DNA of 64,000 nt from Acidimicrobiales bacterium. Lineage in GTDB: Bacteria; Actinomycetota; Acidimicrobiia; Acidimicrobiales; MedAcidi-G1. The position numbers were made by a program, and so were the translations under genes. Below the pieces are notes generated by a model. It worked only from the letters and a program-made list of their open reading frames with translations, had not been told where the DNA came from and searched no databases. Shown one piece after another: positions 52,989-57,977 of this stretch. Position 1 is the first letter of the stretch. Every line of letters begins with the position of its first letter. The stretch is from contig JAERSW010000039.1 of the NCBI GenBank assembly GCA_016845305.1, forward strand, positions 1-64,000, written 5' to 3'.

Positions 52989-53237
52989 TCAGGTCCCGGC
53001 GTCGCCCTCCACCGTGTGGCGCAGCGGGGGCACCAGGCCCGACTCTCCGATGACCCGCAGGGCCCGGAACTCGTCGAGCTCGACCACCACCGCGTCGCCG
53101 GGCTGGCGCCCGCAGAGGAAGGTGACCATGCAGTCGTCGCAGGTCTCCGTTCCCTGCTGCGAGCACTCGTCGCAGTCGATCACGAGGGTGTCGCCCCCCG
53201 TGCCATCCCGGGCGTCCCGGGTTCTCTTCGCATCCAT
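52989..53237 (-). CDS. Small cysteine-rich protein
   Basis: 82 aa. Two CxxC pairs, C22/C25 (DCDEC) and C33/C36 (TCDDC), plus C42, suggest a zinc or iron-sulfur knuckle; the C-terminal half (DEFRALRVIGESGLVPPLRH) is predicted soluble. No named family recognised. CAGGAT (53245-53250, minus strand) is 7 bases before the ATG. It is divergent from the LexA-box nuclease fusion over 94 bp. Confidence 0.75.
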   Translation of the reverse strand: MDAKRTRDARDGTGGDTLVIDCDECSQQGTETCDDCMVTFLCGRQPGDAVVVELDEFRALRVIGESGLVPPLRHTVEGDAGT

Positions 53238-53296
53238 GGTCGACATCCTGACGAGGGGGTGTGACAGCCGTCCCCGGACGGCCCTTCCGAGATGAC

Positions 53297-53325
53297 TTGA
53301 CGGGCGAACGCCTGTTCGATTCACT
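53297..53325 (+). promoter_or_regulatory. LexA-type SOS box inside a promoter
   Basis: CGAAC-GCCT-GTTCG (53305-53318) is a perfect palindrome of the Gram-positive LexA type. It lies exactly in the 17-bp spacer between TTGACG (53297-53302) and a weak -10 TTCACT (53320-53325). Transcription would begin about at the ATG, so the mRNA is probably leaderless and repressed by LexA until DNA damage. Confidence 0.8.
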
Positions 53326-53331
53326 GGAGGG

Positions 53332-55092
53332 ATGGGCCGCTCCCCCGCCGCCGGTTCCCCCTCCCAGCGGGCCAGTCCCCGGCAGGCCAGTCCCCGCCAG
53401 ATCGACCACAGACAGGCCAGCCTCGACGATCTGGGGCTCCCGCTGGCCGACGTCCCGTTCTGCGTGGTCGACCTGGAGACCACCGGGACGTCGCCCGAGG
53501 GCTGTGCCATCACCGAGGTGGGCGCCGTCCGCCTCCGCGGCGGCCGGTGCGAGGGCACCTTCCAGACCCTCGTCGACCCGGGCTGCGGCATCCCCCCGTC
53601 CATCACCGTGCTGACCGGGATCACCGAGTCCATGGTCGTCGACGCCCCCCGGATCGAAGCCGTCCTCCCCTCCCTCCTGAAGTTCCTGGGCGACGCGGTG
53701 GTGGTCGGCCACAACGTCCGCTTCGACCTCGGCTTCCTGAACGCCGCTCTGCGGGCCGACGGTCGACCCGCCCTGGCCAACCGGTCGATCGACACCTGCG
53801 CACTGTCCCGCCGCCTGCTCCGCGACGAGGTCCCCAACCACAAGCTGGGCACGCTGTCCACCCACCTCCGCCTCGACCACCAGCCGTCCCACCGGGCCCT
53901 CGACGACGCCCTGGCCACCGGCGACCTGCTCCACCTCCTGCTGGAACGGGCCGGGTCGCTGGGGGTGACCGGCCTCGAGGACCTGCTCGTCCTGCCCCGG
54001 CTGGCCGGCCACGCGCAGGCGGCCAAGCTCCGCCTCACCGAGGGCCTCCCCCGGCGCCCCGGGGTCTACCTGTTCCGCGGACGCCGGGGCGAGGTGCTCT
54101 ACGTGGGGCGGGCCACCGACCTCCGGGCCCGGGTCCGCAGCTACTTCTCGTCCGACCAGCGCCGGAAGGTGCACCAGCTGTTGCGGGAGACCGAACGGAT
54201 CGACCACCGGGAATGCCGCGACGCCCTGGAGGCGGCGGTGGCCGAGATCCGGCTCATCCACGAACACGAGCCCCGCTTCAACCGGCAGGGCACCACGTGG
54301 CGCCGCTACGCCTACGTGAAGCTGTCCCTCGGCGAGAGGTTCCCCCGCCTGTCGGCGGCCCGGGTGGTGCGCGACGACGGCGCCCTGTACGTCGGACCGG
54401 TGGCCTCGACGTCGGCGGCCCGACGGATCATCGAGGCCGTGGAGACCGTCGTGCCACTGCGCCGCTGCACCGGTCGACCGGGCCGGACCCCGAGGACCGG
54501 AGCGTGCGTCCCGGCGCAACTGGGCGTGGCCACGTGCCCCTGTGCCGGCGACGTCGCCGAGGAGGACTACGCGGTCCTCGTGGAACGGGCCCGACGGGGC
54601 CTGACCACCGATCCCGGCTCGCTGCTGCGGCCGCTGGCCGACCGCATGGCCCGCCTCGCCGACGAGGAACGCTTCGAAGAGGCCGCCGAGACCCGCGACC
54701 GGGCCGCCGCCCTGTCCGACGCCGTGACGCGGCACCGTCGCCTCGCCGCGCTCCGTTCGTCGGGACGCCTGGTGGTCCACCATGCCGGTCGGACCACCGC
54801 CGAGTTCCACCACGGCACCCTGATCGCCGTCGGCGACCGGACCGACCGCGACGCCGACCCGGCCCTCCCCTTCGCCCCCCGGGCGGCGCCCACCGGCACC
54901 ACCGGAAAGCAGGAGGCCGACGAGCTGTACTGCGTGGCCTCGTGGCTGCACGCCGAGGCCGACCGGCTGGTCGTCGGGCACTGCGACGGGCTCCTCGCCG
55001 AACCCGCCGACCGACCTCCGGGGTTCACCGCGTCCCGGGCCACCCGACGAGCCTCCCGGCAGGCGACCCGGTCGGCGTCCCCACCGGCCTGA
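53332..55092 (+). CDS. DEDD exonuclease / UvrC-like GIY-YIG endonuclease fusion
   Basis: 586 aa. Residues about 40-205 are a DnaQ-type exonuclease (VVDLETTG with D47 and E49; GHNVRFDLGFL; SHRALDDALAT). Residues about 235-330 are a UvrC N-terminal GIY-YIG nuclease (PGVYLFRGRRGEVLYVGRATDL). A UVR-like motif (EERFEEAAETRDRAAAL) lies near 440-460. The C-terminal UvrC endonuclease and helix-hairpin-helix are missing, as in Cho. Such fusions are known in actinobacteria. ATG 53332 is the first start after an in-frame stop at 53293 and has no useful Shine-Dalgarno sequence. Confidence 0.92.
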   Translation: MGRSPAAGSPSQRASPRQASPRQIDHRQASLDDLGLPLADVPFCVVDLETTGTSPEGCAITEVGAVRLRGGRCEGTFQTLVDPGCGIPPSITVLTGITESMVVDAPRIEAVLPSLLKFLGDAVVVGHNVRFDLGFLNAALRADGRPALANRSIDTCALSRRLLRDEVPNHKLGTLSTHLRLDHQPSHRALDDALATGDLLHLLLERAGSLGVTGLEDLLVLPRLAGHAQAAKLRLTEGLPRRPGVYLFRGRRGEVLYVGRATDLRARVRSYFSSDQRRKVHQLLRETERIDHRECRDALEAAVAEIRLIHEHEPRFNRQGTTWRRYAYVKLSLGERFPRLSAARVVRDDGALYVGPVASTSAARRIIEAVETVVPLRRCTGRPGRTPRTGACVPAQLGVATCPCAGDVAEEDYAVLVERARRGLTTDPGSLLRPLADRMARLADEERFEEAAETRDRAAALSDAVTRHRRLAALRSSGRLVVHHAGRTTAEFHHGTLIAVGDRTDRDADPALPFAPRAAPTGTTGKQEADELYCVASWLHAEADRLVVGHCDGLLAEPADRPPGFTASRATRRASRQATRSASPPA

Positions 55093-56619: not shown

Positions 56620-57651
56620 TCAGTCCCGGGCGATGGAGGCCAGCGCGGCGGCGGCCGACCCGTCGGAGATGGCCGCCATGGCCCGCTCCAGACCGTCGGC
56701 GATGCCGTCGGCGATCCCGGCCACCACCAGACCGGCACCCGCGTTCAGGGCCACGATGTCGCGACGCGGCCCGGTCTCGGAGCCGTCGAGGATGGCCCGG
56801 GCGATCGCCGCGTTCTCCTCAGGCCCGCCGCCGGCCAGCGCCGAGGCGTCGACCACCGACAGGCCCAGGTCGGCCGGGTCCAGCACCCACTCGGACACCT
56901 CGCCGTCGAACAACTCGAGGACCCTCGTGGGTCCCGTCAGGGCGATCTCGTCCAGGCCGCCGTCGCCGGTCACGATCAGGGAGTGCACCGATCCCCTCGT
57001 CCGGAACACCTCGACCATCCGGTCGGCCAGGGCGGCCTCGGCCGCTCCGATCACCTGGCGCTTCGGCTGGCCGGGGTGCGACAACGGCCCCAGCACATTG
57101 AAGACCGTGGGAATGCCCAGGCCGGCCCGGATGGGCCCGGCGAAGCGCATCGCCGGGTGGTAGGTGCGGGCGAAGGCGAAGCCGATCCGGTGCTCGGCCA
57201 CCTGGGCGGCCAGCGCCTCGGACCCCATCTCGATCTCGACGCCCAGAAGCTCCAGCAGGTCGAACGACCCCGAGGTGGACGACGCCTTCCGGTTGCCGTG
57301 CTTGCAGACCGTGGCCCCACCACCCACGGCCACGAAGCAGGCCATGGTCGACACGTTGAGCGCCGCGTCGCGACGACCCCTCACGCCCCCGGTCCCGACG
57401 ATGTCGATGGTGCCGTCGGGGAGCTCCAACGGCTCAGCGGCCGCCACCATGGCCCGCACGAGGCCCTCGGTCTCGATGGCCGTCTCGCCCTTGACCTTCA
57501 GGCCGACGAGGAACCCGGCGATCTGGGCCGGCTCGGCCTCGCCCTCCAGGATCTCGGTGAGGACGGCCTCGGCCTCGTCGGCCGACAGGTCGTCACCGGC
57601 GCACAACCGGTCAAGCAGCCCCGGCCAGCCGCCGTACGCCTCCAGTGCCAC
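56620..57651 (-). CDS. trpD: Anthranilate phosphoribosyltransferase (TrpD-like)
   Basis: About 343 aa. VCKHGNRKASSTSGSFDLLELLG, KRQVIGAAE and the metal motif GLDEIAL match TrpD, which joins anthranilate to PRPP in tryptophan synthesis. The PRPP loop reads GTGGVRGRRDAALNVST: the Asp-Gly that normally follows GTGG is gone and about three residues are added. Activity may be altered, or this may be a paralogue. No other trp gene is near. GTG 57651 is chosen for lack of a better start; CTG 57666 is possible. Confidence 0.82.
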   Translation of the reverse strand: MALEAYGGWPGLLDRLCAGDDLSADEAEAVLTEILEGEAEPAQIAGFLVGLKVKGETAIETEGLVRAMVAAAEPLELPDGTIDIVGTGGVRGRRDAALNVSTMACFVAVGGGATVCKHGNRKASSTSGSFDLLELLGVEIEMGSEALAAQVAEHRIGFAFARTYHPAMRFAGPIRAGLGIPTVFNVLGPLSHPGQPKRQVIGAAEAALADRMVEVFRTRGSVHSLIVTGDGGLDEIALTGPTRVLELFDGEVSEWVLDPADLGLSVVDASALAGGGPEENAAIARAILDGSETGPRRDIVALNAGAGLVVAGIADGIADGLERAMAAISDGSAAAALASIARD

Positions 57652-57662
57652 GTCGGTTCGGA

Positions 57663-57977
57663 TCAGGCGGTGCGACGACGCCGCAGGATCCGGCGACGCT
57701 CGCGTTCGGTGGTCCCGCCCCAGATGCCCGTCGTCTCCCGGCGGGTCAGGGCGTGGTCCAGGCAGGCGTCGAGCACCGCGCACCCGGAGCAGACCTCCAG
57801 GGCCCGGGCCACGTCGGCCTCGCTGTCGGGGTCCGGATAGAACACCGCCGACTCGAGGCCCCGGCAGGCCCCCCGCAGATACCACTGGGCCGGCGACGGT
57901 TGGGTCGGGACGGCGACCGGTGAGCCGGTCACGGGCGCCGTCGGGGCGGCGGGGGCGGTGTCGAGCAGCGTCTCCAT
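57663..57977 (-). CDS. whiB: WhiB-family iron-sulfur regulator
   Basis: 104 aa. Four cluster ligands C38, C63-X2-C66-X5-C72, the G(I/V)WGG turn (GIWGGTT) and a basic C-terminal tail (RERRRILRRRRTA). WhiB proteins bind sigma factor and respond to nitric oxide, oxygen or redox stress; which one of the subclasses this is cannot be told. It lies 12 bp upstream of trpD on the same strand. Confidence 0.94.
   Translation of the reverse strand: METLLDTAPAAPTAPVTGSPVAVPTQPSPAQWYLRGACRGLESAVFYPDPDSEADVARALEVCSGCAVLDACLDHALTRRETTGIWGGTTERERRRILRRRRTA

Follow-up and report, generated by a model that had tools for sequence, protein, structure and literature searches.

A fusion nuclease of Acidimicrobiales with a predicted LexA-controlled leaderless promoter, and a probable change of damage regulator among its relatives

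Nucleases of the GIY-YIG kind include E. coli Cho, which is SOS-induced, and M. tuberculosis Rv2191, which we take to be a member of the type named 'Cho-like+Exo'. That type is described as an Actinobacteria-specific GIY-YIG subfamily in which a UvrB-binding domain replaces the Cho C-terminus, and digestion by the exonuclease is proposed there to start at the GIY-YIG incision and to run through the lesion (Dunin-Horkawicz 2006, PMC1564403). The family was described no later than 2006, and no regulator is assigned to it in the literature searched, where no study of Rv2191 regulation was found (supplementary regulon tables may list Rv2191). In its main text, the S. venezuelae LexA study mentions neither UvrC nor an exonuclease among the targets. 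In mycobacteria the RecA-NDp motif is the route by which PafBC activates damage genes (PMC6789036, PMC8223512), and in M. tuberculosis the gene divergent from lexA is under PafBC (PMC8151990).

The locus described here is in the window, the whole stretch of 64,000 nucleotides analysed from an Acidimicrobiales bacterium. New here, to judge from promoter sequences, is that in Actinomycetia the orthologues have no LexA box and in its position a PafBC (RecA-NDp) promoter, a predicted clean handover of the gene between regulators, and that a Cys4 protein without a family is putatively linked to the damage response.

The fusion nuclease and its predicted leaderless promoter

The gene at 53332–55092 (+ strand) encodes 586 aa, and its parts, in the order DEDDh exonuclease, GIY-YIG, Cys region and UVR motif, make it an exonuclease-UvrC fusion ('Cho-like+Exo'). 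The Pfam matches are to RNase_T (8.7e-31), GIY-YIG (7.2e-6) and, weakly, UVR (9.3e-5), and the protein belongs to NCBIfam NF005907, 'DEDD exonuclease domain-containing protein' (5.2e-167; 556.8 bits against a cut-off of 454). Orthodox Cho is ruled out as its identity by the UVR and RNase_T matches, and so is orthodox UvrC, since Pfam gave no match to the RNase H-like or HhH domain of the latter and the uvrC equivalog model scores 155 bits, below its cut-off of 285. A separate UvrC-like paralogue is also encoded in the genome, and the fusion nuclease is thus regarded as an accessory enzyme. Across an alignment of 14 relatives, residues D47, E49, D132, H187 and D192 of the exonuclease and Y246, Y257, R265, E305 and N317 of the GIY-YIG domain are invariant. 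Most of the exonuclease, GIY-YIG and UVR helices are modelled with good confidence (structure model, pLDDT 76 overall).

A function other than nucleotide excision repair, for instance the processing of branched or crosslinked DNA with no need of UvrB, is rather unlikely for the nuclease. The weakness of the UVR match, the existence of the UvrC-like paralogue and the presence of recombination genes among those sharing the damage motifs (see below) would all suit such a role; however, the UVR region has residues conserved across the same 14 relatives and the domain set matches the N-terminal half of UvrC. A role in excision repair is the one preferred here.

Three further observations concern the protein and its surroundings. 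The Cys region (residues 379–404; 54466–54543) has four cysteines, C379, C392, C402 and C404, the third being shifted relative to the UvrC spacing. In residues 479–551 (54766–54984) the model continues past the UVR helices with three strands followed by a helix and one more strand, much as an RNase H-like fold begins; this part could be what is left of the endonuclease domain of UvrC. A trpD-like gene is 3′ of the nuclease (56620–57885, - strand), and the neighbourhood is presumably similar to that of Rv2191 and trpD in M. tuberculosis.

Sequence reading and motif search place a perfect LexA (SOS) box, CGAACGCCTGTTCG, at 53305–53318. It is between a −35 TTGACG at 53297–53302 and a −10 TTCACT at 53320–53325 (both + strand; the latter is a weak −10 match, and the pair of elements is conserved in relatives) and is included in the 17-bp promoter spacer (53303–53319). 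Six bases separate TTCACT from the ATG at 53332, as befits a leaderless gene. The sequence-only reading had claimed just such a perfect palindrome in the spacer before a leaderless ATG, and the positions are as it gave them and the arrangement recurs in relatives. The box is the sole perfect CGAACN4GTTCG within the window (0.13 expected from shuffles) and, read on the opposite strand, is identical to the recA box.

The genome (2.92 Mb in 136 contigs) has nine perfect boxes and no site for the reversed control pattern. The boxes are at recA/msrB, lexA with its divergent LysM gene, an imuA'-like gene (a label from sequence reading only, Pfam giving no match), an alkB-like 2OG-Fe(II) oxygenase gene and the window nuclease gene, with one more at the end of a contig, another within a phage-like region and two inside genes. 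LexA domains were confirmed in the lexA product, and LexA is thus encoded in the genome. Upstream of recA (L001, G000:C21:7956-8058) the LexA box is accompanied by TGTCACAGGCCCTTCCTAGGTT, and this arrangement with two promoters is reminiscent of recA in mycobacteria.

Conservation of the box is extensive. It is perfect in 14 of the 15 orthologues of the window's family that have an intact 5′ end, the common layout being TTGAC or TTGC, a few nt, the box, a TTCACT-like element, 6–7 nt and the start codon, and a check for the box and the small divergent gene beside orthologues found both within this family. In a scan of the order, window family included, the box is perfect at 73 of 100 loci and has at most one mismatch at 88 (far-off hits given by a few truncated loci were not counted as promoter boxes). 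Phylum-wide, with duplicates removed and the search confined to the 300 bp before D47, a perfect box is upstream of 132 of 263 orthologues; coding control windows at the same 263 loci contain none, and shuffled upstreams give 0.10. In 64 of the 132 the box is enclosed by a TTG...16-19...NANNNT pair (0.9% at random positions), and the commonest class of boxed orthologues has its first in-frame start 13–16 nt past the box; the enclosing pair and the short start distance together point to a leaderless promoter whose −35 and −10 flank a repressor site. LexA (SOS) control of the nuclease from such a promoter is a well supported prediction. The idea of an SOS-induced Cho-like nuclease, the main claim made from the window alone, is strongly supported by the conservation of the predicted box and stands, as a prediction, more firmly than when first stated.

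Against damage control throughout, neither a LexA box nor a PafBC motif is present at 24 of 83 order-level orthologues, and the phylum families f77, f80, f83 and f91 (L298-L315, L324-L326) have no perfect LexA box and no PafBC motif. One nuclease, 59% identical to the acidimicrobial one, is on a MAG contig titled Bifidobacterium breve (L182, CAMCTY010000013.1), which is probably mislabelled or contaminated.

LexA and PafBC promoters across Actinomycetota

Among named loci of the public genome set, 12 of 15 Acidimicrobiia nuclease loci have the LexA box. It is at none of the 58 Actinomycetia loci (Geodermatophilus, Nocardioides, Actinomadura, Cellulomonas and Micromonospora are among the genera sampled), where TGTC(G/A)(G/C)-N9..11-TANNNT, the RecA-NDp motif of PafBC, is instead at the same place in 48. 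The Fisher p for this split is 2.7e-22, on rows that are not independent. Further genomes of the phylum divide by family in the same way, and for the 263 orthologues the LexA box is present at 132, the PafBC motif at 59 and both at none.

When the two states are mapped on the tree of the protein (261 rows), 2 changes suffice, whereas shuffled labels need at least 45. One of the changes accounts for a single clade of 69 rows (58 with the PafBC motif and 11 with neither) and the other for one isolated row, L181, in which the only motif could be a chance match. As one clade and one doubtful row explain the split, the nuclease seems to have been handed once between two damage regulators. LexA control, being found in several separate lineages, would be the simpler ancestral state. 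Loss of PafBC from the acidimicrobial lineage as the cause of LexA control there is ruled out, as pafBC is present in the genome. The promoters would mark the nuclease as a core damage-response gene across Actinomycetota, and a single handover between unrelated sensors, a LexA repressor and a PafBC activator, would be a natural case of regulon rewiring in which the gene is kept.

The divergent small gene and a variant PafBC-type motif

Divergent from the nuclease gene is one for a cysteine-rich 82-aa protein (52989–53237, - strand). Both genes and the 94-bp gap between them (53238–53331) are as had been claimed from the window; both promoters in the gap are conserved in the family and the 27–87 bp between them is not. 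The protein has the Cys pattern CxxC-x7-CxxC, with C21, C24, C32 and C35 invariant in 50 homologues, and an iterated HMM gave 122 homologous loci with a common GLVPPLR-type tail. No curated Pfam or NCBIfam family matched it when homologues were also searched. A zinc-finger or Fe-S assignment was set aside, the Pfam matches being weak (best 0.002) and scattered over families, and a MYND finger was rejected, the match to one PDB sequence (E 0.13) being taken as chance. Its structure model is weak (pLDDT 73, pTM 0.41) and so no fold is assigned; a fold search with it gave no match under E 8. An inverted repeat, CCGTCC-CC-GGACGG, is between the divergent promoters of the window (53268–53281) and is not conserved in relatives. 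An Actinomycetospora MAG (L261:1493-2875, - strand) has a YacP-like NYN-domain gene between the small gene and the nuclease.

The promoter of the small gene is its own: TGTCACACCCCCTCGTCAGGAT, at 53245–53266 (- strand), 7 nt before the ATG and 38 bp from the LexA box, which we infer to be PafBC-type. It takes the form TGTCAC-N10-CAGGAT, so that in comparison with TGTC(G/A)(G/C)-N10-TANNNT the first T of TANNNT is absent. A TGTCACA element and a downstream −10, facing away from the nuclease, are in all 14 boxed family members, and TGTCACA-N-NCC is at 16 of 30 family small-gene loci. Most of the family members without the nuclease keep the TGTCACA element and have no LexA box. Among Actinomycetia and others of the phylum, 33 of 43 small genes have a RecA-NDp motif of their own, often kilobases from the nuclease.

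The suggestion that the small gene shares the LexA control is contradicted by this conserved promoter and by its retention, with no box, where the nuclease is missing. That one LexA operator in a 94-bp bidirectional promoter governs both divergent genes is very unlikely: though the box in boxed family members is always 19–192 bp upstream of the conserved Cys motif of the small gene, an unconserved spacer of 27–87 bp parts it from the small gene's conserved promoter, in members that have no nuclease the small gene is retained, for the most part with its promoter, and the box is missing, and when the two genes are kilobases apart the box remains with the nuclease. Membership of both genes in the damage response is supported; what did not stand is a common control, the promoters pointing to two regulators, LexA for the nuclease and a PafBC-type one for the small gene.

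Canonical TGTCGGTG-N8-TANNNT (RecA-NDp) has zero sites in this genome, and the absence of any PafBC regulon that this had seemed to mean was overturned by the finding of a variant motif. This, TGTCACANNCC-N6-A-NNN-T, has 11 sites in the genome and 76 in ten Acidimicrobiia genomes; the reversed control pattern gave none, and two Actinomycetia-type genomes have none. Its targets in these genomes, named by sequence reading, include recA, recN-like, radA, rmuC-like and ftsK-like genes, a XerC/D-like gene and the small gene, and further some DUF222/HNH-like genes and, in relatives, the LysM gene next to lexA. Genes for pafA, a WYL/WCX protein and an HTH_PafC/WYL/WCX protein are consecutive in the genome, i.e. 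pafA-pafB-pafC. As these are present with no canonical RecA-NDp site, and on the strength of motif similarity and the target genes, TGTCACACCCC-N6-A-NNN-T is apparently the acidimicrobial variant of the PafBC motif and is read as the PafBC promoter of the lineage. The small protein is likely the product of a damage-response gene, and the derived motif leads one to expect an entire second damage regulon in Acidimicrobiia.

Several individual sites may be added. The LysM gene divergent from lexA (L009, minus strand, ~1390-1440) has TGTCACATCCCATCGTCAGAATGG, the same variant motif as the small gene of the window, before its start and adjoining LexA boxes. The DUF222/HNH-like genes at G000 loci L363, L389 and L392 start 6 nt after a TGTCACACCCC motif, which suggests that they may be under damage control. 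At G022:C49:30649-31054 (L395) three TGTCACACCCCGGGTGAAGAAT copies at a spacing of 192 bp fall within an open frame that is itself repeated; this tandem repeat bears a promoter-like motif.

How close the association of the two genes is can be seen in 248 genomes of the order, of which 152 have the small gene, 86 the nuclease and 73 both (odds ratio 5.9; the p of 1e-8 is overstated as the genomes are related). With 79 genomes having the small gene and no nuclease, it is not a strict partner. These 79, and the queG gene that follows the small gene in the window, favour its being an unrelated housekeeping neighbour (queG-linked, for example) kept beside a damage-induced nuclease by slow decay of gene order. 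This is nevertheless unlikely, given the RecA-NDp motif at 33 of 43 loci in Actinomycetia and others of the phylum and TGTCACA-N-NCC at 16 of 30 family loci, and given that, of the 56 same-contig pairs of the order, 52 have the small gene upstream of the nuclease and divergent from it, mostly within 10 kb. The divergent neighbourhood is, moreover, conserved phylum-wide. It is tentatively possible, though doubtful, that the Cys4 protein is an unrecognised phylum-wide damage-response factor acting with the nuclease, the two genes of the module being under different regulators (LexA and PafBC) in Acidimicrobiia and both under PafBC in Actinomycetia after a single handover. Physical partnership of the two proteins, like the suggested metal delivery, is hypothetical. 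With the Cys4 protein placed beside the nuclease under damage-type promoters, its role is now directly testable, laboratory mycobacteria included.

Proposed mechanism and comparison with known systems

The locus very probably encodes an SOS-regulated accessory excision-repair nuclease with a PafBC-type small gene beside it, the regulator of the nuclease changing from LexA to PafBC by lineage. In undamaged cells LexA on the box between −35 and −10 would block the leaderless promoter, and on damage RecA filaments would trigger LexA self-cleavage so that the nuclease is made. The GIY-YIG domain, possibly recruited by UvrB via the UVR motif, would then cut on the 3′ side of the lesion, after which the DnaQ-type exonuclease would digest its way past the lesion, leaving a primer end; both the incision and the exonuclease step are read from the domains and from the published proposal (PMC1564403). 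The divergent Cys4 gene would be a second damage-response gene, switched on via its own PafBC-type promoter and not by the LexA box. Through all this the nuclease would have kept its damage control while changing master, being under LexA in Acidimicrobiia and several other lineages and under PafBC in Actinomycetia.

The closest known counterpart is 'Cho-like+Exo', with the same order of exonuclease, GIY-YIG, Cys region and UvrB-binding motif in the passages that describe it (PMC1564403) and a related NCBIfam set, NF005903-NF005907. Regulation is not discussed in those passages, whereas here much of the family has predicted LexA boxes and another branch has predicted PafBC promoters. E. coli Cho is, like the window nuclease, a UvrC-related accessory GIY-YIG nuclease, and LexA control is predicted for the latter. 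However, Cho has no exonuclease domain, has a Cho-specific C-terminal domain and not a UvrB-binding motif (according to the same passages of PMC1564403), and its LexA box is of a different type. The mycobacterial PafBC/RecA-NDp system (PMC6789036, PMC8223512, PMC8151990) has its likeness here in pafA-pafB-pafC and in similar promoters at recA and beside lexA, but the motif differs, being canonical TGTCGGTG-N8-TANNNT in mycobacteria and TGTCACACCCC-N6-A-NNN-T in the acidimicrobial lineage.
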